Positions 38,300 to 61,978 of a DNA stretch of 64,000 nucleotides are shown one piece after another. This stretch comes from Geoglobus acetivorans. Its GTDB lineage: Archaea > Halobacteriota > Archaeoglobi > Archaeoglobales > Archaeoglobaceae. How positions within the stretch are numbered: the first letter of the stretch is position 1; the number at the start of each line of letters is the position of its first letter. The stretch spans positions 372,001-436,000 of the forward strand of contig NZ_CP009552.1 in assembly GCF_000789255.1 (NCBI RefSeq), given 5' to 3'. Under the pieces are notes generated by a model. That model was given only the letters and a program-made list of their open reading frames with translations, was not told the DNA's origin and did no database searches. Both the position numbers and the translations under genes were made by a program.

Positions 38300-39658
38300 T
38301 CAGTATCTCTTCAGTCTGACTTCGAAAATGGCGCCACTTGGAGAGTTGTCGTACACCTTTATTTCTCCTCCCAGCAGTTCTACAACCTTTTTTGCGATAA
38401 ATAACCCTATTCCAGTCCCTCCAACTGTTGAAAATCCTTCCTCAAAGATTTTGTCTTTTATTTCGTCGGGTATGCCTTTTCCGTCATCGATTATTCTGAA
38501 AACTCCGTATCTCCCGTTGACGAAAGTTTCGATCGTTATTTTAATATCCTCGCTGTTACTGTGCATAACTGCGTTTCTCAGCAGGTTATCTATTACTGAT
38601 TTTATTGATTCATTTGCCCTTACAAAAACATTTGTAAGTGAGTACTGAATGTTTGCAAGGTCTTCATAGCTTTTGGCTATCTCTCTTATGTAGTCCGAGA
38701 TGTTTATGGTGTAGGTTTCGCCAATTGCCTCTTCTATGGCTTTGGACTCTTTTATAAGTGATTCAATTCTGTCAAGCTTTTTCAGAGCACTCTCTTTTAG
38801 TTTTTCTTCGCCAAGCTCAAAAGCTGCCCTGATAACCGTAATGTCGTTCAGGATGTCATGTCTGAGGATTTTATTTACAAGCGCTAAATACTCGTTCTTC
38901 TTCTTGAGCATTTCCGTGAGCCTGTGAAGGTCGGTGGTATCGACAAGAATGCTTGCAACGGCGGGTTTCCCGCGGTATATTATTCGTGAAGGTCTCCCTG
39001 TTACCCAGTATACATTTCCATCTTTCGTGAGGATTCTCCAGGAATAGGTTTCGACACTCCTTTTGCCCTCAAGTCGCTCCCTGTATCTTTTTTCTACCAT
39101 CCCTCTATCCTCTGGATGGACAAGCTCGAGAGGGTTTAATTTGGAAAGTTCTTCTCGAGTATATCCTGTCAAGTTCAAGAGGCTTTGATTAACGTAAGCA
39201 ACTTTATCATCTTGGAGTATGTATGCAGGATTTGGGGAATCGTCAACCAGAACGCGAAATAGTTCGTTATTCTCTTTAAGCCTGTTTTCAAGCTGTTTTT
39301 TCCGTGTTATGTCTATCCAGTTCCCTAAAGCCAGTATTTCATCGTCACACTCTATCGGGAGAACGTAGCCCCATACCCATCTGACTTTTCCATCTTTTCT
39401 GACGTATCTACATTCGTAGCTAGTTGCTTTACCATTGAATACTTTGAGGACTTCGCGTTTGATTAAGCCTAAATCATCCGGGTGTACAAGGTCATATAGC
39501 GATTTTTTCATTAACTCCTCTTTTGTGAATTTGGTGGCCCTCTCCACTATTTCATTGACATATATTAGTTTGAAGTCAGTGTCGTGTATGTATATTCCTG
39601 CTAGTGATTTGTTCACTATTGTTTTCCAGAACTTTTCGTCGAATTTATTACAGTCCAT
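38300..39658 (-). CDS. PAS-PAS sensor histidine kinase
   Basis: 452 residues with no membrane segment, so a cytoplasmic sensor. Two PAS/PAC domains (about 10-120 and 125-245) end in W-G-Y-V-L-P and W-R-I-L-T-K-D. A dimerisation helix carries R-H-D-I-L-N-D-I (phospho-acceptor His near residue 280), then N box N-L-L-R-N-A-V, G1 D-D-G-K-G-I-P-D and G2 G-T-G-I-G-L-F. A TATA-like TTTTATAT lies about 33 bases before the start. Divergent from a stand-alone receiver gene 172 bases away, which is its likely partner. Confidence 0.9.
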   Translation of the reverse strand: MDCNKFDEKFWKTIVNKSLAGIYIHDTDFKLIYVNEIVERATKFTKEELMKKSLYDLVHPDDLGLIKREVLKVFNGKATSYECRYVRKDGKVRWVWGYVLPIECDDEILALGNWIDITRKKQLENRLKENNELFRVLVDDSPNPAYILQDDKVAYVNQSLLNLTGYTREELSKLNPLELVHPEDRGMVEKRYRERLEGKRSVETYSWRILTKDGNVYWVTGRPSRIIYRGKPAVASILVDTTDLHRLTEMLKKKNEYLALVNKILRHDILNDITVIRAAFELGEEKLKESALKKLDRIESLIKESKAIEEAIGETYTINISDYIREIAKSYEDLANIQYSLTNVFVRANESIKSVIDNLLRNAVMHSNSEDIKITIETFVNGRYGVFRIIDDGKGIPDEIKDKIFEEGFSTVGGTGIGLFIAKKVVELLGGEIKVYDNSPSGAIFEVRLKRY

Positions 39659-39830
39659 CTGTAATTATTTATTTACTCAGTAGATATAAAATTAACGTCA
39701 ATTGACAAAATGGCGCTTCAGTCACTCGGCCACCTATACTGATCGCCACATCTGTTGGCAAAGCCAAAAATTGGTTCACAAAAATTAGACCGCAATAAAT
39801 TTATAAAGCGTATCTAATAAGAGAACGGGG

Positions 39831-40184
39831 ATGGATATGAAAATCCTGATCGTCGATGATGACATGACCGTTCGGGAACTCCTAAGGGTAATTCTGAAGG
39901 ATTACACAACATTCGAGGCAGATGATGGTGAGAAAGCCGTCAGGATGTATCAGGAGCTGAAACCGGATATCGTGCTTATGGACATCTTCATGCCAAAAAT
40001 GGATGGTATTGAGGCGACCAGGAAAATTCTTGAGATTGATCCTGAGGCGGTTGTTATTGGTGTAACTGCCTTTCATTCCAACAAGGGAGATGAACTGATG
40101 AAAGCTGGAGCGAAGGAAGTCATTTCTAAGCCCTTCACGAGAAAGTGGATTGTGGAAGCGATTTCAAGATATGCAAAGGCCTAA
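39831..40184 (+). CDS. Stand-alone response regulator receiver (CheY-like)
   Basis: 117 residues, one receiver domain: acidic triad V-D-D-D-M, phosphorylation site in V-L-M-D-I-F-M-P near residue 51, V-T-A and S-K-P-F. No output domain, so it must act by protein contact. An AATTTATAAAG-like box lies about 30 bases upstream. Positioned between the histidine kinase and the pilin-like operon. The in-frame ATG two codons later is an alternative start. Confidence 0.92.
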   Translation: MDMKILIVDDDMTVRELLRVILKDYTTFEADDGEKAVRMYQELKPDIVLMDIFMPKMDGIEATRKILEIDPEAVVIGVTAFHSNKGDELMKAGAKEVISKPFTRKWIVEAISRYAKA

Positions 40185-40223: not shown

Positions 40224-40976
40224 TTACTGTATTTCTGCATATATGCTGTATTTTGCAAGCACCAGCTTATCAAAGTACATTGTAACGTTGAGAGTACTGC
40301 CGGTGAGGCTGGTTTGCAGAACCGTATTGTTGCTGTATCCTCTCAGCTCGTCGAAGTACGTTTTCCAGGCATCGGCATAGCTTGAATTTATGCTCAGATA
40401 GATGTATCCGCTCTGGTCGAATATGTTTATCTCTGTGGAGTTCAGCCCGAACATGAGTGTTACCGAGCCCTCTCCTCCTGCGGATCCGCTGCCGTTAATG
40501 GATGCAAGGGCCACGAAAACGATGGTTTCGTTGTTTACATTTTTCTTGTAGATGAAAATTCTTGGATTCGACATGATTGTGGTTTTGTCGAAGGACTTCA
40601 CCCATACACCACCGTTTTCGAACGCCATTATGTAATTGGGGTAGCTGTACTCGACTCCTCCAAGGACATCTGTGGAATCAAGGACAGTCGAGTTGTTTAT
40701 CACGACTCTGGTGTGCAGATTTGCGTCTGAGGATACGCTTAATGTGCCACCGCTCAGGACAATTCTCACTTCTTTCTTTGTGCTTTTTCCGTATATGACG
40801 CTTTCAACCGCATCCTGTATTTTCCTGAATCCCTGCAACATGCTTTCGAATCTCACATCCTCTTTTGCATCATTCACTTTCGAGTTGACGCTGATGTATA
40901 TTGTAGTGATTGCTGAGATGACTATTCCGAAGATTATTATGAATCCCACGATCTCGGAAACACCCCTGCTGTTCAT
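40224..40976 (-). CDS. Pilin-like surface protein A (DUF7289-like)
   Basis: 250 residues. N-terminus M-N-S-R-G-V-S-E-I-V-G followed by a 20-residue hydrophobic helix, the layout of a class III (type IV pilin) signal cut after Gly. The extracellular part is rich in Ser, Asn and Thr with N-glycosylation sequons. Near residue 165 it has G-S-G-S-A-G-G, also found in the next protein upstream, and both end in A-D-A-W followed by L-V-L-x-K-Y: the two are paralogues. Last gene of the six-gene operon, 4-base overlap with its neighbour. Confidence 0.75.
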   Translation of the reverse strand: MNSRGVSEIVGFIIIFGIVISAITTIYISVNSKVNDAKEDVRFESMLQGFRKIQDAVESVIYGKSTKKEVRIVLSGGTLSVSSDANLHTRVVINNSTVLDSTDVLGGVEYSYPNYIMAFENGGVWVKSFDKTTIMSNPRIFIYKKNVNNETIVFVALASINGSGSAGGEGSVTLMFGLNSTEINIFDQSGYIYLSINSSYADAWKTYFDELRGYSNNTVLQTSLTGSTLNVTMYFDKLVLAKYSIYAEIQ

Positions 40977-41677
40977 ACAAACCTCACATCCACCACGTAT
41001 TTGGTCAGCACCAGTCTGCTGAACGGGATCGTTACCTCAACCTCTTCATTTTCCACACTGACATTGCCGATTTTTGACAGATACCGGGACCACGCATCTG
41101 CATATTTTGTTCTTATTTCCATTGTGAGATTCCCCGATTCGTTGAAAACAAACGTCTCAGTGGAGTTGAATTTGAGAATGATCCTTGTGATTCCACCTCC
41201 CAGACCACCCCCGGCTGAACCGCTCCCCACTATCTTGAACAGGGCCACAGTTAGATTTCCGTTTTCCAGGTATATTCTGGGATGTGAAATGACCGTCTTG
41301 CCAAAAACACCCCCGTTTTCTATGGCCATTGAAAAGCCTGAACTGGTGTATTCTATGGATTTCAGATCATCGCTCATCTGCAGGACCACTCCAGTCGAAT
41401 TTCTCACCGTAACTGTTACGTGTGTCTCATTGGCGACATGCAGAGAGCCACCTGAAAGGGCGAATTTGGTATTGCTCACAGGAAAAACATCCGCAGAGAC
41501 CTTGGATAGCTGTTCACTAAGATAAACAAGCTGGGAAACCACATTTCGCTCCCTTATTACTTTCTGGTGCGTGTCTATCACCGGCATACCGTACAGTAGC
41601 AGGACAGAGATTGTTATGACCATCATGGCAATAATCAGTATTGCATCCAGGACATCCGAAACGCCATCATCCCTCAT
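40973..41677 (-). CDS. Pilin-like surface protein B (paralogue of A)
   Basis: 234 residues: short charged N-terminus (M-R-D-D-G-V-S-D), one hydrophobic helix, then an extracellular domain with several sequons, the G-S-G-S-A-G-G-G motif near residue 150 and the A-D-A-W-S-R-Y / L-V-L-T-K-Y ending shared with protein A. It overlaps the VWA gene by 4 bases on its 5' side. Probably a minor pilin or structural subunit. Confidence 0.75.
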   Translation of the reverse strand: MRDDGVSDVLDAILIIAMMVITISVLLLYGMPVIDTHQKVIRERNVVSQLVYLSEQLSKVSADVFPVSNTKFALSGGSLHVANETHVTVTVRNSTGVVLQMSDDLKSIEYTSSGFSMAIENGGVFGKTVISHPRIYLENGNLTVALFKIVGSGSAGGGLGGGITRIILKFNSTETFVFNESGNLTMEIRTKYADAWSRYLSKIGNVSVENEEVEVTIPFSRLVLTKYVVDVRFV

Positions 41678-44097
41678 TTTAACACAACCTTTTCCGGACT
41701 TATTCTCGTTACATTCAGCTCTGGAACGGGCAGGTCTATGGTCGTTACATTAACTCCGGTGAATGGCCATGGCAGATATGTTACATTTGAGAGTCCAAAG
41801 ACATTTGTCTGTATGAGCCCCTCCCTGCTTGGCACGACCTCAAAGCTCGTGGTCCAGGTTTCATTTATTCTTATGCTCGTCAGATTCCACTGCAGGACTG
41901 TCAGGCCGCCCGAAATGCTGATGTTGGCACCAGGCGGAGGCTGGGAGAGGGTAACGTTGGACGTCAGCACATCGGTTATGGTAACGTTCACCGCAGCCTT
42001 CTCCTTAAGCTCCTTTGCAATCTGTTCGTATATGTTCTGAAGCTCCTCTGATGTTGCCGCAAAGAAGTAGTAGTCAGGAGATGTGGCTATCTGCTGCAAC
42101 AATGTTGCATTGGCGTCGCTGCCAAATCCGATTGTGTATATCAGTATGGACTCGTTGTTCACCTGAGTTTGTTTGGTGATTTCCGCTTCGTTCAAAGCCT
42201 CCTGAATTGCAAGGGTTTCAGAAGCAACGCCGTTCGATGTTATCGTGGGGTTTCCGTCTGAGAGAATAATCATGACCGGGATGTTGCCGGGAGTAGTGTT
42301 TGCCACAAGTTCCTCTCTTGCCATCTTTATTCCTCCACCTAACGGAGTTCCGCCATATGCATACAGTCCGTCTATGCTTGTGTTTGCCTGATCGGTGTTG
42401 TTGGTGAGGTACTGGTCAAGAGTAACTCTTGGAGTCCTGCCGCTGCTTCCCGCACCTCCGAAGGAGACGACTCCCACCTGATCGCTTGTTCTCAAAAACC
42501 CGTTGAATGTTTTTGCGGTTATCTTGGCAGCATCAATTTTTGCTATGTCGGCTGTGAGATAGTAATCCTGTGTGCCGTAGGGGAAGTCCGCAACCACATA
42601 GGCTGTGTAGGTTCCGCTGGCAGCATTTGTATCAGTGTAGTATTCACCACTGGAGGAGGAATACGGTCCCCTCAGGGCTCCTCCTGGCTCCTGAACCCAC
42701 AGATGGAGTTCCTTGGTTCCGTTTACCGGGGTAGCTTCAATCTTGAGGTTTTCAACAGCCGGTATCTCGAATGTGGTGATTGATGCGTTGGCATCCAGTG
42801 TGAAGGTCCAGGATGCAACCTGAGTACCTGGATAGTACCACCACCACCAGAAATAGCCGTCCTTCTCAACCTCCACCGTAACGGTATCGCTGCCCGTGGG
42901 ATAGTCCGCAACGACGCTGATGGTCCAGTTACCCTCCACAGGATTCTGGACAAAATACACTTCTCCATAATTCGGGAGGAAATATGGGTTGATGTACTGT
43001 GCCCTCGCAAAATCTCCATCGGGGGACTTGACCCACAGGTCTATGTCCTTCCCGCTGGATGTGTAGGCCTTAACGGTCAGACTGGAGAAGCTGCTGTCAA
43101 CATTCACGTAGTTCTCCCATTTGGATGGGGTTGCGGTGCCGGTGGTTGAGTTGTAGAGAGTATATCCGTTTATTCCGTAATAATCAGGGTCCATGCTCCC
43201 CGAAACGTCAATAACGTGCATCACGCTAACGTTTCTCGCCTGTTCGATTATTCCTCCACCCCTTAGATAAATCACAATCTGAACGGGGTTGCCCGGCTCG
43301 GTGATTCCGGGTATAACATATTTGGTGGCAAAGAGGTATGGATTCAGCTCCTGACTTTGTGGTATGACTGTTATGTTGATGGTGCTGCTGTCCGAGTAAC
43401 CGTAGCTGTCCCACACCGTGAGAGTTGCGGTGTATGTACCGTCAGATGAGTAGGAATGCTCCACCAGCGACTGGGACGGATTGTTTGGATCGTATTTGCT
43501 TTCATAGCTGCTCCCATCACCAAAATCCCATCTGAACCATAAATCACCCTCACCCGTCGAGAGGGTCATGTCGAAGGTTACGTTGCTCCCCACCTCAACC
43601 GTGGTTGGATATGCCAAGGCCACTGCAGTAGGCATCAGATGGCTGTATTTCGTATATTCTATTATGTGTACAGGTGTTATGCTGAAGGTTGAGCCGGCAG
43701 GCAGAACCTTCAGAGCAATGTTGTTGATCGGAATGTATTCGCTTTTTCCGGCCCTTTCGGAAGATATTTTAATGACGTATTCTCCGGATACCTGCGTGAA
43801 CTCTGCCTTGAAATCGTAATCTCCGACCGTGTAGGGCATGAATACCTTTGCCCTAACGTATCCGTTTTCAGGGGCAATCAGCGAGATATCCGTCAGCTTT
43901 ACAGCAATCTGGTTTCCGACGTCCTGGAACTGATTGTCCATTGCTGTGGAAACCGGTGCTTTACCAAGAAGATCGTTGAACTCAAGCGCTATAAATGAGA
44001 AGAATATCATGAGTATTACCGATAAAATCAGGTATTCCACAAGGAACGATACACCCTTCTCCGGGTTACGTGAGCTGGACTGTGATCGTTTCTTCAT
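41674..44097 (-). CDS. PKD/VWA adhesin-like protein with pilin-type N-terminus
   Basis: 807 residues. A basic N-terminus ending K-G-V-S-F, then one hydrophobic helix, as in pilins. Around residues 165-250 is a PKD domain (F-R-W-D-F-G-D-G-S). A VWA domain begins with the MIDAS D-V-S-G-S-M (Asp297), is interrupted by about 210 residues holding two beta-sandwich modules (each with L-W-V and a Y-V/S-V-V-A-D strand, like PPC domains), and resumes near residue 520 with V-G-V-V-S-F-G, G-G-T-P-L-G and L-S-D-G-N. C-terminal beta domain after 700. Likely the tip or adhesive subunit of a surface structure. Confidence 0.82.
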   Translation of the reverse strand: MKKRSQSSSRNPEKGVSFLVEYLILSVILMIFFSFIALEFNDLLGKAPVSTAMDNQFQDVGNQIAVKLTDISLIAPENGYVRAKVFMPYTVGDYDFKAEFTQVSGEYVIKISSERAGKSEYIPINNIALKVLPAGSTFSITPVHIIEYTKYSHLMPTAVALAYPTTVEVGSNVTFDMTLSTGEGDLWFRWDFGDGSSYESKYDPNNPSQSLVEHSYSSDGTYTATLTVWDSYGYSDSSTINITVIPQSQELNPYLFATKYVIPGITEPGNPVQIVIYLRGGGIIEQARNVSVMHVIDVSGSMDPDYYGINGYTLYNSTTGTATPSKWENYVNVDSSFSSLTVKAYTSSGKDIDLWVKSPDGDFARAQYINPYFLPNYGEVYFVQNPVEGNWTISVVADYPTGSDTVTVEVEKDGYFWWWWYYPGTQVASWTFTLDANASITTFEIPAVENLKIEATPVNGTKELHLWVQEPGGALRGPYSSSSGEYYTDTNAASGTYTAYVVADFPYGTQDYYLTADIAKIDAAKITAKTFNGFLRTSDQVGVVSFGGAGSSGRTPRVTLDQYLTNNTDQANTSIDGLYAYGGTPLGGGIKMAREELVANTTPGNIPVMIILSDGNPTITSNGVASETLAIQEALNEAEITKQTQVNNESILIYTIGFGSDANATLLQQIATSPDYYFFAATSEELQNIYEQIAKELKEKAAVNVTITDVLTSNVTLSQPPPGANISISGGLTVLQWNLTSIRINETWTTSFEVVPSREGLIQTNVFGLSNVTYLPWPFTGVNVTTIDLPVPELNVTRISPEKVVLK

Positions 44098-44479
44098 ATT
44101 CTACCTCCGTATTGCTGAAGATTATCTTGACCGTAAACGATGTAATCGATTCGGAGCCACCAACAAAACTCTTCTTGATATCATATACATCAATGCTTGC
44201 GTATGCTCCGTGCAGAGCATACAGCGCCGTTATCTGGTTGTCAAGGCCCTTGGCCCGCTGAAGAAACGATGACGGGTCTCCGGCGTACTCGGTAAGCTCT
44301 TCCACGGCAATTCTTTTCAGATATCTGATATCGTTTTTCGGAAAGTTCAGCTGGCTGATTGAAGTTTCCGTCCCTGCCAGCAGGTTCTGGGAATATACGT
44401 AGGAAAGGCCTATCAGCAGTATTGAGATCAGAAGTGCCATCGTTATGATCAGCTGGCCCCTGTCATTCATTTCTCTCAT
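44066..44479 (-). CDS. Small pilin-like protein
   Basis: 137 residues from the ATG at 44479, which has GGAGGGTG upstream and follows the previous stop by two bases. M-R-E-M-N-D-R-G-Q then a hydrophobic helix of about 22 residues gives a pilin-type start; the rest is a small extracellular domain. It overlaps the VWA gene by 32 bases. No family recognised beyond the pilin-like layout. Confidence 0.7.
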   Translation of the reverse strand: MREMNDRGQLIITMALLISILLIGLSYVYSQNLLAGTETSISQLNFPKNDIRYLKRIAVEELTEYAGDPSSFLQRAKGLDNQITALYALHGAYASIDVYDIKKSFVGGSESITSFTVKIIFSNTEVEYEETITVQLT

Positions 44480-44481
44480 GT

Positions 44482-45015
44482 CTACACCCTCCACATTATC
44501 AACCTGACCTCAAACAGAACCGGTATGTTGCTGTTAGTCCCCTCCACGTCTGTGGTGTTGATTTTGAATGGGGAGCCGTCTGCAAGTTCCCCATTTTTCA
44601 GAACCAGGTATGTGGAGGAGGTTACCGTTGTCGAGGTTGGGGTTTTGCTGGTTATGTTGTACACCTGAATTCTTCCGGTCGTCTGGTTAAGGTAGTAAAC
44701 CTGAAGATTGAAATCCACATAACCGGGGAGCAGTTTTTTCAGACTGCTGATGAGCTTATCCGGCATGTATGTGCCGTTGATGTGTTTCAGGGCGTATTGA
44801 AGTGTATCTTCAGCGTTCGATTCGTTGTTGAGAATCCTGAGGGCGTCATCTCCATACTGTTTGATCTGAACGTAAACAACCTCGTCTGAAATGGGCGAGA
44901 TTATCATCGTGCTCTGGAAGAGGAAATAGGCCACGCTGAGCATGAGCACTGATGCAATTATGCTCTCCAGGGTCATTATCTGACCCTTACCACACCGCAA
45001 CAACGAGTTTGGCAA
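44482..45015 (-). CDS. Pilin-like protein
   Basis: About 177 residues. The N-terminal segment G-K-G-Q-I-M-T-L-E-S-I-I-A-S-V-L-M has the charged, Gly-x-x-x-x-Glu look of type IV pilins (Glu near mature position 5). An extracellular domain with several N-x-T/S sequons follows. The start is uncertain because the frame overlaps the upstream gene by 29 bases. Confidence 0.68.
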   Translation of the reverse strand: MPNSLLRCGKGQIMTLESIIASVLMLSVAYFLFQSTMIISPISDEVVYVQIKQYGDDALRILNNESNAEDTLQYALKHINGTYMPDKLISSLKKLLPGYVDFNLQVYYLNQTTGRIQVYNITSKTPTSTTVTSSTYLVLKNGELADGSPFKINTTDVEGTNSNIPVLFEVRLIMWRV

Positions 45016-45889
45016 CTATTCTCCCCCCTATATATTCTCCCGCGTTCGTTGAGATAACATATCCTCTAACGTTATGCACCTGTATATCCACGTTAACCGT
45101 TCCACTGTACTGGTTGATGTCACCTGTCAGATCGAATGTGGATATGGTTTCGTTTCCCCGCACATCTATAACATTGATACTGTTTACATCTACCCTCATC
45201 CAGGGTTCTGTTGCGGACTGATTATCATTCACGCCGGTAATCACTATGACGAATGAACCGACTGGAGCAGGGACGGCATAATTGTAGTTGACGGTGTTGG
45301 GAGTATCAAGTTTACTTGAGATTTTGGACACACTTGTGGTGTTTTCAAAGGCAATTATTCTCTCATATCTCGCAACATTTGAACCGTCAGGTATCGGCTC
45401 CCCGATCAAGAGCATTGGCTGGCTCCCGTTCATGGAGTATATCGGATTCGATGAATTGCTTGACAGCAACTGGAGAGATATATTGAACCCGAACACTCTA
45501 TCCGGTGTTTTCAATCCCAGAGCCTTTCTCAACCCGTCAATTCCAGCTGACGCATATAAACTGTTCAGGGCATCGATCTTTACCGGGTCAAGCACGTTCA
45601 CTTCAGAGCCCATCAGGCCCGGCCTCACCTCCACATCAGGCAGAGAGTAATAGTTCTCCCAGTCCGTCCCGTTGACACTCCCGTTGCTCCAGTAACCGGG
45701 GTCCTCAACGAGAAGTGCAGAAATTCTGTATGCAAGAGGATATAGGTATATTTCGCTCCTCTCGGAGGCAAAAATTGCGGGAACATACTGGATTATAAAT
45801 ACAAAACTCATGAGAAAAATCGTGAGGCCTATGAGGAGATCGAGGCTGAGCTTGCCCTCGTCGTTTCTCATTTTTTCACTGCCTTTCAT
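44987..45889 (-). CDS. Pilin-like protein, first gene of the operon
   Basis: 300 residues: N-terminus with K/E/D charges and G-K-L-S-L-D-L-L-I-G followed by a hydrophobic helix, then a large extracellular domain with many Asn-glycosylation sequons. Only single-helix membrane topology can be predicted; similar to haloarchaeal DUF728x surface proteins in layout. GGAGGAG lies about 17 bases upstream of the ATG. A second ATG seven codons downstream is possible. Confidence 0.72.
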   Translation of the reverse strand: MKGSEKMRNDEGKLSLDLLIGLTIFLMSFVFIIQYVPAIFASERSEIYLYPLAYRISALLVEDPGYWSNGSVNGTDWENYYSLPDVEVRPGLMGSEVNVLDPVKIDALNSLYASAGIDGLRKALGLKTPDRVFGFNISLQLLSSNSSNPIYSMNGSQPMLLIGEPIPDGSNVARYERIIAFENTTSVSKISSKLDTPNTVNYNYAVPAPVGSFVIVITGVNDNQSATEPWMRVDVNSINVIDVRGNETISTFDLTGDINQYSGTVNVDIQVHNVRGYVISTNAGEYIGGRIVAKLVVAVW

Positions 45890-47387: not shown

Positions 47388-48836
47388 CTAAATGATTGAG
47401 TTGAGTCTCGAGACGAGTCTCCTCACGATCCTGACGGGTTCGGGTGGCAGAGGGGACAGCAGGATGTCGACGTCCTCCTCATCGAACAGCTTCAGGATTG
47501 AGAGAGCGATGAAATACACCGTGAATGCAATGGCTATTTCTGCAAGAGAGAGTAACCTCCCGTTTAGATGGATGCTCAAAAACACTGCTGACAGGATTGA
47601 GTATGAAACTGCAATTTTAAGCAGGTATTTCGGAGACCATTTAAAGTAAAACTTTCCCGCATAGTAGGTCAGAAGGAGGACTGCCGACGTGATTGATGCC
47701 GCAACCACCGAGATTGTGGACGATGTTACGGGATTGCTGTCCATGAGGTGGATCATAGCAACCTGAACCACTGTTGCGGTAACCAGGCATAACGCAGGAA
47801 TTTCTGGTCTCTCAAATGCAACGAGATTGGAAGAAACGAGAAAGGTCAGAGATAGAAATCCGATACCTGCGGAAAGCATTCTCAGGATATCCTCACCGCC
47901 CATGTATTTTCTGCCGAAGAATATGTTGAGCCAGGTTCCCGGGTCGGCAGTCATGGAGATGCACACCGGGAACACAAAAAGGGCGACGTACTTTATCGAC
48001 TGGAATGCGTATTCCTCCCTTTCGGTGTTCGAGTGGGAGGATATGTAGGGGAAAAGCACGGTTATTAACGCGGAAGTGATGAAAAACGGCCCCCTCGCTA
48101 TCGTCAGGGCAGCATTGTAGTCTCCCGCAAGAGCATCGCTGCCGCTGAACCACCTCATGAAGATTATGCTGGAGTTGATGATGAAGTTGATCCCCAGGAA
48201 AATAATTGAGACGAAAAACGTCTCACGGATCATGTTACCGGAGAAACCTCTGGACTGTGGCAGCTCAAGCCTGGTTGCGTGGCAGGTCAGATAGATGAAA
48301 ACCGCTACGCTCGAAATCAGCAGACCACCGAGGGCACCCACAGCACCCATGCCGAGGACAACCAGGATAACTGCGGTGAGAAGTTTGAGGAAAGACATCA
48401 TAATGTTCGCGACCGCAATCTGGCCAAACCTCTTCACCGCCCTGAGGAGTGCGGCATAGGAATTGGTGAGTGCCGAAAGCAGCAGCACCCCCAACACCAT
48501 CAGGTTGGGTATAAGGTACGTTTCCGACCTGTATGAGTAGTAAAGTACCGCCAGAGATGCAGTGACTGCGAGGGCGAGGTTCCCGGCAGTAACGGTTCTC
48601 AGAACCATAGATGCTTCGTGCGGTGATGACGCTATCCTCCTCGTCCCGCTCCACGAAAATGTATTCTGTGTCAGGACGGAAGTGATGTAAAGTATTGCAA
48701 GCGCAACACCGAGGACTCCGAATTCCTGCTTCGGCAGCAGTATCCCCATGACCACCTGGTAGAGGTAGTTGAACAGTGTACCTACCACCAGTGCCGAAGT
48801 CATGATATAGCTGTACTTGGCGATCTCCTGCTTCAC
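47388..48836 (-). CDS. Polysaccharide flippase, MOP (Wzx-like) family
   Basis: 482 residues with 12-14 hydrophobic helices in the MATE/Wzx pattern: an N-terminal Y-L-Y-Q-V-V-M-G-I-L-L helix, P-F-F-I-T-S-A-L-I-T-V-L-F-P-Y-I in the middle, and an F-G-R-K-Y loop. It would move lipid-linked oligosaccharides across the membrane for surface glycan assembly. Divergent from the glycosyltransferase genes that start at 48.98 kb. Confidence 0.88.
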   Translation of the reverse strand: MKQEIAKYSYIMTSALVVGTLFNYLYQVVMGILLPKQEFGVLGVALAILYITSVLTQNTFSWSGTRRIASSPHEASMVLRTVTAGNLALAVTASLAVLYYSYRSETYLIPNLMVLGVLLLSALTNSYAALLRAVKRFGQIAVANIMMSFLKLLTAVILVVLGMGAVGALGGLLISSVAVFIYLTCHATRLELPQSRGFSGNMIRETFFVSIIFLGINFIINSSIIFMRWFSGSDALAGDYNAALTIARGPFFITSALITVLFPYISSHSNTEREEYAFQSIKYVALFVFPVCISMTADPGTWLNIFFGRKYMGGEDILRMLSAGIGFLSLTFLVSSNLVAFERPEIPALCLVTATVVQVAMIHLMDSNPVTSSTISVVAASITSAVLLLTYYAGKFYFKWSPKYLLKIAVSYSILSAVFLSIHLNGRLLSLAEIAIAFTVYFIALSILKLFDEEDVDILLSPLPPEPVRIVRRLVSRLNSII

Positions 48837-48977
48837 GGTGCTGATAAAATGTTAAGTGAATATATTGTTTTTGTAAAAATTTATGTGATTCTGAATTTAT
48901 AGTATGTATATTGACGAAGGCGTTTATAATAGTGTCGTATGTCCTACAATTGCCAGCGGTCTGGCTTTGATAGAGGG

Positions 48978-49703
48978 ATGTTTATGGAGATGATTTCTGC
49001 AATTCTTCCGGCTTACAATGAAGAGGATATTATCGAGAATGTGCTGCATGAAACTGCGAGAACATTAAACTGGATAACCAGCAGATGGGAAATTTTGGTC
49101 GTGGATGATGGCAGTATCGATTCAACCCCTGAGATTGTAAAAAAATTTGCAAAAACGGACAACAGGGTGAAGATCTTATCATACGGTAAGAATATGGGCA
49201 AGGGTTTTGCCTTGAGATATGGCTTCCAGCACTCGCGCGGAGACCTGGTAATCTTTATGGACGCAGATCTTGAGCTGCATCCGAGGAAGATAATCGAATT
49301 TATTGAAATAATGAGAGAAGAGGGAGCCGATATCGTGGTCGGATCAAAAAGACATCCGAAATCTAAGGTAGCGTACCCCCTCAAGCGAAAAATTCTAAGC
49401 AATGTTTATTTTTTGCTGGTTAAAATTTTGTTCGATCTCGATGTAAAGGACACGCAGACCGGTTTGAAGTTGTTTAAGAGGGATGTTCTTGCGGATGTTA
49501 TACCAAGGATTCTGGTAAAAAGGTATGCTTTTGATGTTGAGTTGCTTGCGAACTCTGTCAGGAGAGGATATAAAATTGTAGAAGCGCCCGTAGAACTGAA
49601 CTTCAGACATAACAGCCACGTCAACTGGAAGGAAGTATGGAAGATCCTTGTCGATACGATGGCCATAGCGTACAGGATGCATATAAAACGGTATTATGAT
49701 TGA
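48978..49703 (+). CDS. GT2 glycosyltransferase, dolichyl-phosphate sugar synthase type
   Basis: About 242 residues from the ATG at 48978; a longer frame from 48939 adds 13 unlikely residues. V-D-D-G-S-I-D-S-T binds the nucleotide, M-D-A-D-L-E is the D-x-D site, and D-T-Q-T-G-L-K-L-F-K is typical of dolichyl-phosphate glucose or mannose synthases. No membrane domain. It overlaps the frame of the GT4 gene and likely shares a transcript with it. Confidence 0.88.
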   Translation: MFMEMISAILPAYNEEDIIENVLHETARTLNWITSRWEILVVDDGSIDSTPEIVKKFAKTDNRVKILSYGKNMGKGFALRYGFQHSRGDLVIFMDADLELHPRKIIEFIEIMREEGADIVVGSKRHPKSKVAYPLKRKILSNVYFLLVKILFDLDVKDTQTGLKLFKRDVLADVIPRILVKRYAFDVELLANSVRRGYKIVEAPVELNFRHNSHVNWKEVWKILVDTMAIAYRMHIKRYYD

Positions 49704-49717
49704 AATCCGGTGTCGGT

Positions 49718-50797
49718 ATGGATATGCTGTGGTTCAACTGGAGGGACATAGGAAATCCCGAAGCCGGAGGGGCTGAGGTTTACACTCATGAGATTGCAAA
49801 GAGACTGGTAGGAAAAGGATATTCGGTAACCCTATTCACATCCAAATTTGAAGGCTGCAGAAAAGAAGAGGTTATCGACGGAGTTAGAGTCGTAAGGGGT
49901 GGCGGGAAGTATGCTGTGTACCGGAAGGCCAAAGAATTTTACAAGAAAAACGGTAGCAAATTTGACGTGATAATTGACGAAATAAACACGAGACCTTTCC
50001 TGACTCCTCGGTTTGTTGATGGGCATAAAATTATAGCTCTGATACACCAGCTGGCAAGGGAGTTCTGGTTTTATGAGACTCCCTTTCCCGTAAATCTAAT
50101 TGGCTATTATATTTTGGAGAAAAGGTGGCTGAAGAGTTATTCAGACATACCCACGATTACAGTTTCAAACTCCACAAAAGGGGATCTGGAGAGTTTGGGA
50201 TTCAAGAGGGTTTTTATAGTTCACAACGGACTGAATGTCGAGCCAGTTGACAGAGTTCCAGAAAAATCCGAGAGACCGACCGTAATTTACGTTGGAAGGA
50301 TGAAGAGAGCAAAGAAACCCCAGGATGTTATCGACGCGTTTAGGGTGGTCAGGACGGAAGTGAGGGATGCAGAGCTCTTGATGGTGGGAGACGGATATCT
50401 AAGGAGAAAGCTGGAATCCGTGACCGGAGATGTCAAATTTTTCGGATATGTTGACAGGAAGACAAGGGATGACCTGGTAAAAAAAGCGTGGGTTATTGCG
50501 GTTCCCGGGGTAAGGGAAGGGTGGGGACAGGTAGTTACGGATGCAAACGCTCTGGGAACGCCCGCAGTTGGATACAACATCCCCGGTTTGAGGGATTCAA
50601 TAAAACACGGATATAACGGGCTTTTAGTCGATAGCTCACCTGAAGCGATGGCAGGGGGCATAATCGAAGTGTTAGTAGATGATGAGCTGAGGGAAAAGTT
50701 AAGCAGAAATGCCATTGAATGGGCCAAGCAGTTCAGCTGGGACAGGAGTGCCGAGGAGTTTGAGAGGGTCATCGAGGAAGTCATCCGGCAGAGCTGA
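49718..50797 (+). CDS. GT4 glycosyltransferase
   Basis: About 359 residues from the ATG at 49718. N-terminal N-P-E-A-G-G-A-E-V-Y-T-H (donor domain loop), C-terminal V-G-R-M-K-R-A-K-K-P-Q-D-V and P-G-V-R-E-G-W-G (E-x7-E region) are GT-B family 4 marks. Retaining enzyme; sugar not known. Ends the intact part of this transcript before the toxin-antitoxin region. Confidence 0.88.
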   Translation: MDMLWFNWRDIGNPEAGGAEVYTHEIAKRLVGKGYSVTLFTSKFEGCRKEEVIDGVRVVRGGGKYAVYRKAKEFYKKNGSKFDVIIDEINTRPFLTPRFVDGHKIIALIHQLAREFWFYETPFPVNLIGYYILEKRWLKSYSDIPTITVSNSTKGDLESLGFKRVFIVHNGLNVEPVDRVPEKSERPTVIYVGRMKRAKKPQDVIDAFRVVRTEVRDAELLMVGDGYLRRKLESVTGDVKFFGYVDRKTRDDLVKKAWVIAVPGVREGWGQVVTDANALGTPAVGYNIPGLRDSIKHGYNGLLVDSSPEAMAGGIIEVLVDDELREKLSRNAIEWAKQFSWDRSAEEFERVIEEVIRQS

Positions 50798-50932
50798 AAA
50801 CCATGTTGCTGGCTGAAGTTCGAATACGGTAATTCAACAACCATCGTGGTATCAAAATTCGTAGACAGATGAAAGTTGCGTGTTTTGTGAAAAGGGCATA
50901 TATTCGTGTCTCTATACACTACACATTAATGC

Positions 50933-51198
50933 ATGAAGACGATTTCAATAAGGGATGATGTTTACAACAAGCTCGCGGATATGAAGGAAGGGAAAGAAAG
51001 CTTCAGCGATGTGGAGGAAGAACACCAACATCAAAAAGGTATTTCGGGGCTTTGAAGGATAGCGAGGTTCTCGACGGGATTGAAAAGAGTCTGGAACTGT
51101 TGAAATCGCTGAGGGATTTGGAGCCAAGGTATATCAGCTCCGATTGTGAGAGAGCCAAGAATGGGCTTGGGAAGGGCGAAAAGGTAAATACGTTTTGA
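50933..51198 (+). pseudogene. Frameshifted VapB-type (DUF217-like) antitoxin with a GT2-derived tail
   Basis: The ATG at 50933 opens K-T-I-S-I-R-D-D-V-Y-N-K-L, the start of a DUF217-type VapB, up to S-F-S-D-V-E, then the frame is lost and stops at 51055. A second frame continues R-Y-F-G-A-L-K-D-S-E-V-L-D-G-I-E-K-S-L-E. After L-R-D-L-E-P-R the reading becomes D-C-E-R-A-K-N-G-L-G-K-G, matching D-C-E-R-A-K-A-K-N-F-G-L-R-R of the GT2 gene at 52.8 kb also at DNA level. So a broken antitoxin is fused to a scrap of GT2. No matching PIN gene follows. Confidence 0.75.
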
Positions 51199-51213
51199 GG
51201 GGATTATAATTTG

Positions 51214-51528
51214 ATGAAGGAGAAGATAAGAGAAACAATTCTGGAAGTGGCTGAAAAGTTCGGGATAAAGGTAGACAGGATAATCCTGTTCGGTTCGAGA
51301 GCGAGAGGAGATTACCGAGAGGATTCGGATTGGGACATTTTGATTGTCAGCAAGACTGAGATTGATAGAAATACTGAGAGGAAGTTTCTTTACGAATGTG
51401 TTTTGAAATTACTGGACTTAAAAGTCGATGCGGAACCTATGGTAGTCAGTAAGAGCTATTACCTTAAACACAAAGATGTTTTCGGCGACATCTGCGGTAT
51501 GGCAACATCAGAGGGTGTGGTTATATGA
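51214..51528 (+). CDS. MNT-domain nucleotidyltransferase
   Basis: 104 residues from the ATG at 51214. I-I-L-F-G-S-R-A-R-G-D-Y-R-E-D-S-D-W-D-I gives the GS motif and D-x-D of minimal nucleotidyltransferases. Overlaps the HEPN gene by 4 bases, the usual antitoxin-like arrangement of MNT-HEPN pairs. Confidence 0.88.
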   Translation: MKEKIRETILEVAEKFGIKVDRIILFGSRARGDYREDSDWDILIVSKTEIDRNTERKFLYECVLKLLDLKVDAEPMVVSKSYYLKHKDVFGDICGMATSEGVVI

Positions 51529-51902
51529 TTGTCGAAAAAGCAAGGGAGTGGTTGAAAAAGGCTGAGACTGATCTAAAAGTTGCAAACATATTAATTAGAG
51601 AAGGAATCTACGATTACTCATTATTTCACTCCCAACAAGCGGTTGAAAAATACCTCAAAGCATTCCTGACTTATCACAACAAACCGTTTGGAAAAACTCA
51701 TAACATTCCTTTACTCTTAAGTTTATGCGCGGAGATCGATCAAAGCTTCGAGGATCTGCTTAAGCTCGATTTTTCCATTTTATTTCCACTCGGTGTTACG
51801 ATCAGATATCCCATAGGTCGGGAAGTAACGGAAGATGAGGCGAAAGAGGCAATTGAGATAGCTGAGAAGGTTAGAGAGTTCATTTTGAGGAAGACAGGAT
51901 AG
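51525..51902 (+). CDS. HEPN-domain protein
   Basis: 125 residues. A-R-E-W-L-K-K-A-E-T-D-L at the start and F-H-S-Q-Q-A-V-E-K-Y-L-K-A-F-L near residue 38 are the HEPN signature. It lacks the HepT R-x4-H catalytic motif, so it is of the non-RNase MNT-HEPN type. Toxin role presumed only from the pairing. Confidence 0.85.
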   Translation: MIVEKAREWLKKAETDLKVANILIREGIYDYSLFHSQQAVEKYLKAFLTYHNKPFGKTHNIPLLLSLCAEIDQSFEDLLKLDFSILFPLGVTIRYPIGREVTEDEAKEAIEIAEKVREFILRKTG

Positions 51903-51930
51903 CTCCGATGGTGTCATTGGGAATCAGCTG

Positions 51931-52077
51931 GTATCTGTTGTTATCCCAACCTGCAATTCCGGATGAACTCTTGAGCTGTGTCTGAAATCCGCAGTCAGCC
52001 GGAGCTATGGCGATAGTGAAATAATAGTTGTTGATAGATTCTCCGAAGATGGAACTGTCGAAATTGCAGAAAATTGA
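51931..52077 (+). pseudogene. GT2 glycosyltransferase N-terminal fragment
   Basis: The reading V-S-V-V-I-P-T-C-N-S-G, stop, T-L-E-L-C-L-K-S, E-I-I-V-V-D-R-F-S-E-D-G-T-V-E-I-A-E-N, stop, lies in one frame with one internal TGA. It aligns with residues 3-50 of the GT2 gene at 52779, including the unusual V-D-R-F-S. A decayed partial copy lying between the MNT/HEPN and VapBC modules. Confidence 0.85.
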
Positions 52078-52136
52078 TACTAAAATCAACGAACGAATTC
52101 GGAAAGAATATAAGTCTACAGAACGTCATTTAAGGT

Positions 52137-52376
52137 ATGGCTGAATTGAAAATTAGAGTTCCCGAAGATTTGAAGAAGAAGATGGAAAAATTCGGAGTTG
52201 ACTGGTCACCGGCGATAAGGAAAATGATCGAAAGGGAAATTCAAAATCTGACCGAGATCGAGAGAATAATATCCAGGAGCAAGATGACTGAAGAAGATGC
52301 CTTAGAACTCGGCGAGAATATCAGTAAATCGATTGCCGAGAGGTTCAGAAAGCATGTTACTGGTGATCGACGCTAA
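52137..52376 (+). CDS. vapB: VapB-like antitoxin
   Basis: 79 residues, an AbrB-less, CopG-like layout: a short strand (A-E-L-K-I-R-V-P-E-D-L) then W-S-P-A-I-R-K-M-I and a charged helical tail that would wrap the toxin. Overlaps the PIN-domain gene by 23 bases. Confidence 0.8.
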   Translation: MAELKIRVPEDLKKKMEKFGVDWSPAIRKMIEREIQNLTEIERIISRSKMTEEDALELGENISKSIAERFRKHVTGDRR

Positions 52377-52782
52377 TGTTGTATTTGCCGCTCTTATAGC
52401 CAGAGGAGGAACGTTCAGAGTTTTTGTAATGAACAAGATTCTGAGGAAATTCCGTTTCATAGCTCCAGAGTATCTGTTCATCGAAATTCGTGAGCATTTT
52501 GACGAAATACTCAAAAAGACTAAACTTTCTCAAGAAGAACTGGAAGTTGTTTTGGATTTTCTAGAGGAGCAGATAGAGGTAGTTCCGTTTGAAGAGTTTG
52601 AGGACGAGTATGATGTAGCCAGAAGGATTTCTCCTGATCCGGACGACGTTCCTTACTTCGCACTCGCACTAAAATTGAACTGTGCAATTTGGTCGAATGA
52701 TAGAAAGTTAGAAGAGCAGGACATCGTTAAAGTCTATACGACGCGGGATATAATACAGATGCTTAGGATGGAGGAGAAATGA
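52354..52782 (+). CDS. vapC: VapC-like PIN-domain toxin
   Basis: 142 residues from the ATG at 52354. V-I-D-A-N-V-V-F (first Asp), E-Y-L-F-I-E-I-R (Glu) and D-P-D-D-V-P-Y-F-A-L-A-L-K with W-S-N-D give the acidic Mg-binding set of PIN ribonucleases. Ends in ATGA with the truncated GT2 gene, so the module is transcriptionally joined to the glycan genes. Confidence 0.85.
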   Translation: MLLVIDANVVFAALIARGGTFRVFVMNKILRKFRFIAPEYLFIEIREHFDEILKKTKLSQEELEVVLDFLEEQIEVVPFEEFEDEYDVARRISPDPDDVPYFALALKLNCAIWSNDRKLEEQDIVKVYTTRDIIQMLRMEEK

Positions 52783-53171
52783 AGGTTTCAGTAATAATTC
52801 CAACTTACAATTCCGGGAGAACTTTAAGGTCATGCTTGGAGTCTATAAAAAACCAGAGCTATAGAAATATTGAAATAATAATCGTGGACAGATTCTCCAG
52901 CGATAAGACTGCTGAAATCGCAAAGGAATATGAAGCCAGGGTTTATCAACTGGATTGCGAAAGAGCAAAAGCCAAGAACTTCGGGCTGAGAAGGGCGAGA
53001 GGGAGGTATGTCATGTTCGTGGACTCGGACATGGAGCTGATGCCTGACGTTGTGAAAGAGTGCGTTGAGCTGGCCGGGATGGACAACAAAACAGGCGGGG
53101 TGATCATTCCGGAGCGGTCGGTTGGTGAGGGGTTCTGGGTGAGGGTCAGGGATTTTGAGAGGTTGAAATGA
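52779..53171 (+). CDS. Truncated GT2 glycosyltransferase
   Basis: 130 residues only; the catalytic half of GT2 enzymes normally exceeds 220. V-I-I-P-T-Y-N-S-G-R-T-L and V-D-S-D-M-E-L (D-x-D near residue 85) are intact, but the protein stops after V-R-D-F-E-R, where relatives continue into the acceptor region. Its TGA overlaps the next GT2 gene's ATG, which suggests a recombination joint or deletion. Whether it is active is doubtful. Two further scraps of the same gene lie upstream (51.14 and 51.93 kb). Confidence 0.8.
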   Translation: MKVSVIIPTYNSGRTLRSCLESIKNQSYRNIEIIIVDRFSSDKTAEIAKEYEARVYQLDCERAKAKNFGLRRARGRYVMFVDSDMELMPDVVKECVELAGMDNKTGGVIIPERSVGEGFWVRVRDFERLK

Positions 53172-54118
53172 ACATGAATGATTTGCCTTTGGTTTCAGTG
53201 GTTATTCCTACGCACAATCGAAAGGAGAAGTTGATCAGATTGATAGAGTCCATTTTGAGAAGTAGCTATCCGAAGGAAAAGTTGGAGATAGTAGTGGTGG
53301 ATGATGCATCTACCGACGGAACATACGAGGAGATTAAGAAAAAATTTCCAGATGTTAAAGTCGTTAGAAACGAGAGAGAGTTATACCTTGCAGGTTCGAG
53401 GAATGTTGGCATAAGACACGCCAGCGGAAGGCATATACTTTTGGTGGATGACGATAATGTCGTTGATGAAAATTGTATTTTCGAATTGGTCAGAACTTTG
53501 CAAAGCGATGGTAAAATTGGAATCGTAGCTCCTATAATGTATTATTTGAAACAGCCAAATCGTATCTGGTGTGCGAGTGTTAGAAGGAATATGATCACAT
53601 CTTTGACAAAGATCGTAGGAAGGGACGAGATAGACAACGGGCAGTATAGGGCTTTAATAGAGTCCAACGATTTCCCAAACGCTTTAATGGTTAAAAGGAA
53701 GGTTATAGAGATGGTAGGTTTATTGGATAATAAGCTCTTTCCTATTCATTATGATGAAGCAGATTTTGGGGAAAGAGTAAGAAGAGCAGGATATATAGTG
53801 GTTTGCAATCCTGAGGCAAAAATCTGGCATGACATACCATTGCCAGAAGAAGTGGAAGAGAAGGCAAGGCTCTTTCACTGTCACAGCGAGTTGAGAGCTT
53901 ACTATTGCGGTAGAAATAGAATAATATTCCACAAAAAATATTCGAAATGGTGGCAGTTTCTGATTTTCATTTCTATTTTCAATTGGTTGTTTACGCTGTA
54001 TTACTTAAGGGTGATTTTATTTGGCTTAAGGAAACCGTTCAAGGAAAGGTTGAAAATTGCAAAGGCTTATTTGAGAGGGGTTATGGAGGGGATGAAGTAT
54101 GCTTTCCAAAATATATGA
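53168..54118 (+). CDS. GT2 glycosyltransferase (rhamnosyltransferase-like)
   Basis: 316 residues. V-V-I-P-T-H-N-R-K, V-V-D-D-A-S-T-D-G-T-Y-E-E and V-D-D-D-N (metal site near residue 97), then a C-terminal acceptor domain and a hydrophobic segment near the end (about 255-275). Its first 55 residues are nearly identical to those of the GT2 at 55957, so the two are recent paralogues or have exchanged DNA. Overlaps the following phosphatase-like gene by 20 bases. Confidence 0.88.
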   Translation: MNMNDLPLVSVVIPTHNRKEKLIRLIESILRSSYPKEKLEIVVVDDASTDGTYEEIKKKFPDVKVVRNERELYLAGSRNVGIRHASGRHILLVDDDNVVDENCIFELVRTLQSDGKIGIVAPIMYYLKQPNRIWCASVRRNMITSLTKIVGRDEIDNGQYRALIESNDFPNALMVKRKVIEMVGLLDNKLFPIHYDEADFGERVRRAGYIVVCNPEAKIWHDIPLPEEVEEKARLFHCHSELRAYYCGRNRIIFHKKYSKWWQFLIFISIFNWLFTLYYLRVILFGLRKPFKERLKIAKAYLRGVMEGMKYAFQNI

Positions 54119-55067
54119 CAGTATTATGAACGTGCTAACCACTATTTTATTTGGTCCAACTAAAAGTACAGATAATGTGTTTAATCTGAATTGGGACTAC
54201 CTTATAATATTAGATGCTTGCCGGTACGATGTATTTAGTAAAGTCTATAAAGTATTTTTCTCTTCAAACATTAAATTTGAGAAAATAATTTCTCTCGGAT
54301 CAATGACAGCAGAATTTGTAGGGAATTGTTTTAGTGATAAAGAAGTTCTGAGAAAAATGCAAGATGTTGTATTCATAAATTCTAATCCTGTTGTTGATAA
54401 AACTCTCTCCAATTTAGGAGTAGATCCCAAAAAGGTATTCTACAAATATATCCCTGTATGGAAAAAATATTGGGATTATAATATCGGAACTGTAATGCCG
54501 GAAAATGTATATAATGTAGCATTAAGAACGTATATAAATTATCCAAACAAAAGAATGATAATATGGTTTTTACAGCCACATTTTCCATATCTTGATGAGA
54601 AATTTAAACATTTAAATGATATTGGGAAGGAATTTATGAATAAATCTCTATTAAATAATTCTGAAAATAATTTTATAATTCTTCTTAGAATATTAAAAAG
54701 AATAATTACAAAAGGTTACCTATCGGCAGGAATACCCGAAAAGTTAAGTGAGTATATGAGACATAATTCAGCAGATGTTTGGAGAGCATATACGTCTAAT
54801 TTACTATCAGCTCTGAAGTATGTAAAAAAGCTTGCAGAAATTTTACCTGGAAAAATAATAATTACATCAGATCATGGCGAATCTTTTGGAGAGCGTTTAA
54901 CTAAATTACTACCTATGGAGATATATGGACATCCGTCGAGAATTAGAATGCCCTCATTAATTGAAGTTCCATGTCTTGAAGTTGAGAACAATATTTCTCA
55001 AAAAGAATCTATTAGAAAAGCGTATCGTGATTTATTATATTCTTGTATTGTTGTTAAGGAAAGATGA
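54099..55067 (+). CDS. Alkaline-phosphatase-fold (sulfatase-like) protein
   Basis: 322 residues. D-Y-L-I-I-L-D-A-C-R-Y-D near residue 30 carries the N-terminal metal Asp with the Cys expected for a sulfatase-type nucleophile environment, and T-S-D-H-G-E-S-F-G-E near 262 is the C-terminal metal site of the superfamily. It would transfer or hydrolyse a phosphate or sulfate ester of the glycan. AT-rich codon use begins with this gene. Confidence 0.75.
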   Translation: MLSKIYDSIMNVLTTILFGPTKSTDNVFNLNWDYLIILDACRYDVFSKVYKVFFSSNIKFEKIISLGSMTAEFVGNCFSDKEVLRKMQDVVFINSNPVVDKTLSNLGVDPKKVFYKYIPVWKKYWDYNIGTVMPENVYNVALRTYINYPNKRMIIWFLQPHFPYLDEKFKHLNDIGKEFMNKSLLNNSENNFIILLRILKRIITKGYLSAGIPEKLSEYMRHNSADVWRAYTSNLLSALKYVKKLAEILPGKIIITSDHGESFGERLTKLLPMEIYGHPSRIRMPSLIEVPCLEVENNISQKESIRKAYRDLLYSCIVVKER

Positions 55068-55097
55068 AGAATTCAAAAACATAGAGGTGGTCCTAAT

Positions 55098-55964
55098 ATG
55101 ATGAAGCATTTGTTTAAAGGGAAATTAGGGAACTCAAAAAGAAATCTTATAAAAGCAGGTCAAATAAACAGAGAACAACTACACAAAAAATTAATGGAGT
55201 ATTACAATAAAAACAAGAAGTATTATGAAAATATGCTACTTTCTGCACCTTTTGAAAGCTATAGAATGTATATGGACTACTTAAAACCGGAAAGTGGTAA
55301 AAAAGTTCTAGATGTGGGATGTGGTGTAGGTACTGTTGTTCACCACCTATCTGAACAAGGATTTGAAGCTTATGGTATTGATGTTTCCCCCATAGCTATA
55401 GAGATTGCCAGAAAAAGTGGGTCCGGAACATTTAAAGTATATGATGGAAAAAAATTTCCGTTTCCTAATAACTACTTTGATTCTGCTGGCTGTAAAGATA
55501 CTCTCGAACATACAGTATATCCTGAACATTTATTGGATGAAATGATAAGAGTTGTTAAACCCGGAGGAAAGATAGTCATTAGTTGTCCAAACTTTTTTAG
55601 AGTTATTGGATTCTATGAACATCATCCATTAATGTCGGGATTGAGAAACAGATTATTGAATTTTTTCCTATTGGCTGAAAAGTATATTGCTTACAGGTTA
55701 AGTAAAAAAGAAAAAATAGAGTTTATGTTTATTGACCCTATTTTGGATGAGTCACCAGCTCCAGATAAAGATGCTGTATTTGCTACGAATCCCATAGATA
55801 TAATTTTCTATTTAAAATATAAGGATGGAGAGATTATATATTACTCTGGCAACAATAATTATTGTAAAAATAAATTATTAAATGAAATTAGTGATTTTCC
55901 TATTATAAAAAGTTTTACAGGCTCCTTCTTTATCGTGGCAAAAAAGGTGAAAAACTATGACTAG
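55098..55964 (+). CDS. Class I SAM-dependent methyltransferase
   Basis: 288 residues with motif I V-L-D-V-G-C-G-V-G-T near residue 73, Y-G-I-D-V-S-P (acidic ribose ligand) and L-E-H-T. The C-terminal 90 residues are family-specific. It probably methylates a sugar of the surface glycan. ATG at 55098 and 55101 are both possible starts. Overlaps the next GT2 by 8 bases. Confidence 0.88.
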   Translation: MMKHLFKGKLGNSKRNLIKAGQINREQLHKKLMEYYNKNKKYYENMLLSAPFESYRMYMDYLKPESGKKVLDVGCGVGTVVHHLSEQGFEAYGIDVSPIAIEIARKSGSGTFKVYDGKKFPFPNNYFDSAGCKDTLEHTVYPEHLLDEMIRVVKPGGKIVISCPNFFRVIGFYEHHPLMSGLRNRLLNFFLLAEKYIAYRLSKKEKIEFMFIDPILDESPAPDKDAVFATNPIDIIFYLKYKDGEIIYYSGNNNYCKNKLLNEISDFPIIKSFTGSFFIVAKKVKNYD

Positions 55965-56922: not shown

Positions 56923-56927
56923 AAAAT

Positions 56928-60635: not shown

Positions 60636-60656
60636 ATTCCAAATCAATCATAAAAC

Positions 60657-61315: not shown

Positions 61316-61430
61316 ACCTTCCAAACTGTTCTTGGATAGCAGGAACAATCGGCAATCTTAACCTCATCCTTCAAACTCCAATTTTATCTTCTTTATCCAA
61401 GGCCTCACTTCAAAAAGGCTTTACTTGATC

Positions 61431-61848: not shown

Positions 61849-61978
61849 AGTTATGGTCTATAAAACTTCATATATCAGGAAGTTTTGAAGTTACTCACAA
61901 AGACGGAGTGTTAGCTCCCGGTTACTTATTATCTCCTATCGGGAAACATTTAATACCCAGTCAGATAAGAATTAAAAC

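Follow-up and report, generated by a model that had tools for sequence, protein, structure and literature searches.

Six overlapping genes of Geoglobus acetivorans encode pilin-like proteins, the largest of which carries PKD and vWA domains. Do these genes specify a self-contained surface filament or adhesion complex, as the initial annotation proposed, or one part of a pilus whose assembly machinery is encoded elsewhere? The window analysed here is a stretch of 64,000 nt, positions 372001-436000 of the 1.86-Mb single-contig genome, and coordinates refer to this window unless they are given in kb or Mb of the genome. We find that the operon is real and conserved and belongs to a known kind of pilin operon, and that its modular vWA pilin is lineage-specific.

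Six overlapping pilin-like genes

The six genes lie on the minus strand and run from 45889 down to 40224 (Table 1). Reading frames, coordinates, strand and overlaps all agree with the tightly overlapping arrangement originally described. Overlaps of 4 nt join gene A to gene B and gene B to gene C; the remaining overlaps are 32, 13 and 29 nt, lengths that vary with the choice of start codon. For gene D, an in-frame ATG at 44479 is an alternative start that would give a product of 137 aa. A scan for sigma-70 promoters and terminators, which does not cover archaeal promoters, gave results at chance level.

Pfam family matches were obtained for five of the six proteins, while the sixth, gene C, was assigned to DUF7266 through the N-termini of its orthologues. 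Genes A and B both belong to DUF7289 and share 30% identity, in keeping with the claim that two of the genes are paralogues. The extracellular domains had also been called glycosylation-rich. This holds for five of the six proteins, in which N-X-S/T sequons are about 2- to 3.5-fold more frequent than expected from shuffling, and fails for the 142-aa product of gene D, which contains none.

Table 1. Features of the operon, genes in transcription order; module positions are residues of the gene C product
Feature	Position	Strand	Evidence or motif
Gene F, 300 aa, DUF7287 pilin-like	44987..45889	-	Pfam PF23958 E 1.1e-7; Archaeoglobales orthologues in order; leader conservation
Gene F leader			ends ..RNDEG; mature start KLSLDLLIG, Asp at +5
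Gene E, 177 aa (TTG start as listed), DUF7288 pilin-like	44482..45015	-	Pfam PF23959 E 4e-16; conserved order
Gene E leader			ends ..CGKG; mature start QIMTLES, Glu at +6
Gene D, 142 aa, DUF7261-like pilin	44066..44494	-	Pfam PF23922 weak, E 0.005; position, orthologues, acid-free N-terminus
Gene D leader			mature start QLIITMALL; acidic residue absent
Gene C, 807 aa, modular pilin (DUF7266-type module + PKD + vWA + C-terminal beta domain)	41674..44097	-	Pfam PKD, VWA; orthologues; AF2 model
Gene C pilin module, DUF7266-type	about residues 1-148
Gene C PKD	residues 156-244		Pfam
Gene C vWA	MIDAS D297-x-S299-x-S301, T584, D614		Pfam VWA E 8.2e-15
Gene C insertion after DxSxS, ~215 residues	residues 302-518
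Gene C C-terminal beta domain	after vWA
Gene B, 234 aa, DUF7289 pilin-like, gene A paralogue	40973..41677	-	Pfam PF23960 E 8.5e-19
Gene B leader			MRDDG; mature start VSDVLDAIL
Gene A, 250 aa, DUF7289 pilin-like	40224..40976	-	Pfam PF23960 E 1.9e-24; AF2 mean pLDDT 89.7
Gene A leader			MNSRG; mature start VSEIVGFII

Leaders and pilin architecture

In all six proteins a short, charged leader with Gly as its last residue precedes a single hydrophobic helix, beyond which lies an extracellular domain, so that the charged leader and hydrophobic helix reported earlier are seen in every product. Orthologues from about 50 other genomes were searched with our own family-specific leader patterns, in which position -1 was left free and the acidic residue was required for genes E and F; G or A occupied -1 in 79-100% of the matched orthologues of the six families. 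The six proteins and most of their orthologues are therefore predicted to have class III signal peptides, which are recognised by a charged leader, G or A at -1 and a hydrophobic helix. The acidic residue of the mature N-terminus is less uniform. It is found at +6 in 26 of 32 gene C orthologues and is absent from +1 to +8 in all 29 gene D orthologues. The capping subunit of bacterial tip complexes is likewise free of this residue. PilA, some gene A orthologues and many archaeal pilins lack it as well, and since so many archaeal pilins do without it, the acid-free start of gene D is weak evidence for a tip cap.

A structure model was made for gene A, the one small subunit modelled. It consists of a 60-residue N-terminal helix (residues 3-62) and a head of beta strands (residues 67-249). 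Compared with the PDB by fold, this DUF7289 model had no pilin among the 50 best matches listed, and TM-scores were low; a DUF7289 sequence profile likewise found no PDB relative. The structural check suggested by the initial annotation thus gave a long helix and a beta head, with a head that matches no solved pilin by fold. The missing match counts against the pilin reading but, pilin heads being very diverse, is compatible with membership. Ordinary Sec leaders and a lack of pilin likeness had been named as what would speak against a pilin operon; we found class III-type leaders and, in gene A, the plan of a pilin.

A pilin with a PKD-vWA extension

The large protein was first described as a PKD/VWA protein. 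Both domains are present (Table 1), but they do not constitute a separate adhesin. Judged from its sequence, the 807-aa protein is a DUF7266 pilin of about 150 aa with a PKD-vWA graft of about 650 residues, because its short homologues cover the pilin module only and match DUF7266, and because the long forms are confined to Archaeoglobales. Homologues outside Archaeoglobales and in paralogous sets measure 134-178 aa, apart from one of 211 aa whose start is extended, and their alignment with the 807-aa protein is limited to residues 5-147. DUF7266 is matched both by these short homologues and by the N-termini of two full-length orthologues. In a phylum-wide DUF7266 search, long proteins (frames of about 770-980 aa) were found only in Archaeoglobales. 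Long DUF7266 frames in GC-rich haloarchaea were considered as further grafts and rejected, the five checked being upstream artefacts: four of these proteins, tested directly, end at about 150-166 aa, and the long frame of the fifth (L174) extends upstream only. The PKD-vWA extension thus appears to be the unusual and new part of the operon, specific to the Archaeoglobales lineage in our sample.

The vWA domain has an intact MIDAS, whose five residues are invariant in 19 orthologues, and the large insertion that follows the first three of them differs between genera. The AF2 model of gene C has an overall pLDDT of 81.7, with low confidence (about 40-70) over the pilin part at residues 1-150. 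A profile search against solved structures retrieved the bimodular vWA pilin PilB of Streptococcus sanguinis (PDB 7b7p, E 1.3e-9) and also the tip subunit Mfa5, and the best fold matches of the model include several tip proteins or adhesins of pili, namely SpaC, Mfa5, RrgA and PitA.

S. sanguinis PilB (PMC8179133) resembles gene C in combining a pilin module with a C-terminal vWA domain that has a canonical MIDAS. The match to 7b7p, however, covers the vWA part only (query 542-702), with no homology seen between the two pilin modules; gene C differs further in its PKD domain, its larger insertion and its DUF7266-family pilin module. Insertions beside the MIDAS have been described for PilB and RrgA as well, and the text on S. 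sanguinis PilB does not mention archaea (PMC8179133). The sortase and type V proteins SpaC, RrgA, PitA and Mfa5 share with gene C a vWA fold with extra domains beside the MIDAS; their assembly systems are unrelated, and the likeness lies in the adhesive module only. In the papers searched we found no description of a modular vWA pilin in archaea, nor any paper that names the DUF72xx families.

Conservation of the gene order

DUF7289 regions were collected from 50 other genomes. About 20 regions from Archaeoglobales repeat the order F-E-D-C-B-A, far beyond chance, and it was seen again in loci from GTDB contigs, whose genomes largely overlap the first collection. Geoglobus sp. UBA235 and another genome of the genus (G144) have the same module. 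Outside Archaeoglobales, a simpler five-gene order F-E-D-C-A is found in Halobacteria and methanogens; L086 is an example, with DUF7287, 7288, 7261, 7266 and 7289 in succession, and other families of the phylum are represented by L089, L092 and L096. Of 296 genomes sampled from the phylum as a whole, 243 contain DUF7289 itself, sometimes in many copies.

Gene C is not the only subunit with an added domain. At L050:10683-13070, in a genome that is possibly Ferroglobus, the gene D homologue, a DUF7261 subunit, reaches 795 aa and includes a Big_7 Ig domain. Grafting is thus not restricted to a single subunit.

Probable assembly machinery elsewhere in the genome

Neither a secretion ATPase nor a prepilin peptidase was mapped in the window, and the TadC genes that we saw adjoin ATPases elsewhere on the chromosome, which agrees with the observation that no ATPase, TadC or prepilin peptidase gene is nearby. 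The rest of the genome supplies these components. ATPases at 459, 74 and 996 kb each have TadC alongside and form three non-archaellum pairs; a fourth ATPase at 140 kb has no TadC nearby, and the fifth is that of the archaellum. A 244-aa Peptidase_A24 / Arc_PepC_II protein with the archaeal C-terminal domain, at about 1.575 Mb, is the prepilin peptidase, and a stand-alone PilA pilin (KGVSPVIGVILMVAITV) is encoded at about 1.671 Mb. With three ATPase/TadC pairs, a peptidase and PilA in the genome, the six-gene set is probably served in trans. The suggestion of a shared machinery is accordingly likely to be right, while that of a self-contained system was rejected: this is a standard euryarchaeal set, often found beside ATPase/TadC genes in other genomes, and its machinery is encoded in the same genome.

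The co-occurrence of the pilin set with such machinery was then quantified. A T4P ATPase lies within about 10 kb in 18 of the 55 DUF7289 regions; the number of ATPases, the length of the regions and the size of the genomes would predict 2.6 such cases (p about 3e-11). The regions are not fully independent, owing to shared ancestry and to some genomes having given two. The association is seen both in Archaeoglobaceae (p about 5e-6) and in the remaining genomes (1.5e-6). Among Geoglobus-type modules, only 2 of 20 run directly into an ATPase and TadC (L055 and L070, of one genus), so the lack of a local ATPase is their usual state. The L055 genome may be that of A. veneficus.

In the ATPase tree two main lineages are seen, 459/140 and 74/996. 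The former holds most of the ATPases found beside these pilin sets, including those of two loci, L052 and L064, in which an ATPase/TadC pair stands tail to tail with a paralogous set whose gene C is short. The latter includes the ATPase of L055 and L070; in these two loci this relative of the 996-kb enzyme adjoins the operon itself. By tree and synteny, either the 459/140 or the 996 lineage may supply the cognate ATPase. The operon lies 41 kb from the 459-kb pair, a distance that relatives do not share. The set could be of PilB3 or PilB4 type, since both kinds of ATPase have PilB3_C matches.

Assembly in trans was proposed for Archaeoglobales by Makarova et al. (2016; PMC4858521). The euryarchaeal Clade 2 T4P sets of that paper share with our locus the pilin-like subunits, the clade-2 type of ATPase/TadC and pilin-less duplicates in Archaeoglobales; a PKD-vWA modular pilin is not described in the main text of that paper. 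PMC4858521 also reports that ATPase/TadC genes of Archaeoglobales are duplicated without pilins, which implies assembly in trans, and that pilin sets have been exchanged in A. veneficus. Both points fit the synteny and the ATPase tree obtained here.

Two side observations concern the loci of the 140-kb and 74-kb ATPases. At L009:8896-11044 (about 138.9-141.0 kb of the genome), an ATPase without nearby TadC is followed by a conserved 222-aa protein without Pfam match, and the pair recurs in three related genomes; this could be a retraction or regulatory ATPase. At L011:5088-7364 (about 71.1-73.4 kb), a second modular pilin, with Pilin_N, Big_1 and DUF2341 domains, is divergent from the 74-kb ATPase/TadC pair.

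Proposed role of the operon

We believe, with a probability of about 0.62, that the operon encodes the minor-pilin complex, for tip formation and priming, of a euryarchaeal T4P with a vWA tip adhesin and assembled in trans. From the evidence above we infer leader processing, assembly in trans, tip position, filament formation and adhesion in the following way. The peptidase at about 1.575 Mb would remove the six leaders, and the ATPase/TadC pair at 459 kb, or that at 996 kb, would insert the six subunits as the first-assembled tip. PilA-type subunits would polymerise beneath it, and the vWA module displayed at the tip would act as a metal-dependent adhesin. The tip placement is drawn by analogy: in bacteria, complexes of minor pilins initiate assembly and bear grafted modules (PMC10191384; PMC12075869). 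The six subunits could instead be distributed along the filament or build the filament themselves. An adhesion role, as originally suggested, is plausible.

The TadE/F/G and KilLMN tip complexes (PMC12075869) provide a parallel, with several minor pilins encoded together and the largest bearing an adaptable C-terminal module. The origin of Tad systems lies in an archaeal T4P (PMC6668835). The six proteins gave no Pfam match to the Tad families or to PilHIJK/TadEFG at E below 1.

That the operon encodes a whole filament, with DUF7289 or another of the six as the major subunit and PilA belonging to a different system, seems unlikely to us. In its favour, DUF7289 is duplicated here and sometimes present in many copies, and a second euryarchaeal system is assigned a pilin set and a major pilin of its own (PMC4858521). 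Six different subunits in single or double copy nevertheless resemble minor pilins, and major pilins are typically stand-alone genes according to the same paper, a description that the PilA gene of this genome fits. We regard as quite improbable a short pseudopilus or envelope-embedded complex, serving as a surface sensor or secretion device in place of an extended pilus. Surface sensing in Pseudomonas uses type IV pili together with a vWA domain (PMC9210963), and the long filament of our reading is a prediction; the PKD-vWA extension, however, is like the adhesins at the tips of extended pili, and ATPase/TadC genes of the adhesive-pilus kind accompany the set. Ordinary Sec-anchored surface proteins unrelated to pili, which would share the single N-terminal hydrophobic helix as a signal anchor, were rejected as very unlikely, given G or A at -1 after the charged leader in most orthologues, family-wide N-terminal motifs, the strong association with pilus ATPase genes and the long helix and beta head of gene A.

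The minor-pilin reading would give a likely function to DUF7261, DUF7266, DUF7287, DUF7288 and DUF7289, families that are widespread in Halobacteriota. A broader proposal, to which we give slightly less than even odds, is that bacterial tip and priming complexes of minor pilins have their general euryarchaeal counterpart in the DUF7287-7288-7261-7266-7289 set, with tips customised by the grafting of adhesive modules. The grafts would then be PKD-vWA on DUF7266 in Archaeoglobales, Ig on DUF7261 (L050) and DUF2341/Big_1 on a PilA-like pilin at another locus of the G. acetivorans genome, an interpretation that we hold equally tentatively. That archaea, like bacteria, turn pili into adhesins by cut-and-paste becomes a testable idea. 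The vWA tip could hold metal-reducing Geoglobus cells to mineral surfaces, and is a candidate means by which hyperthermophilic iron reducers grip them. G. ahangari attaches to iron oxide by means of curled appendages, structures whose make-up had not been determined (PMC4600277); a link between them and the operon is speculation.

Neighbouring genes

Just downstream of the operon, at 38300-40184, a PAS/histidine-kinase-type protein and a single-domain response regulator are encoded, the regulator gene being convergent with the operon. On the other side, next to the sequon-rich pilin operon, genes for glycosyltransferases, flippase-like proteins and membrane proteins follow one another at 47388-62000. 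This stretch, in which GC falls to about 28-31% at 54-58 kb of the window, may be an acquired locus for surface glycans. A short open reading frame at 61513-61848 repeats the C-terminal part of the 1238-aa frame at 56919-60635 and is probably a partial duplication. Two other glycosyltransferase genes, at 308-1870 of the window and at L012:2596-3279, lie about 620 kb apart and share the near-identical stretch FDEFEIIIAEDGSTDGTDRIAQSLEEKYSFVRHLHSD, which suggests a recent duplication or gene conversion.
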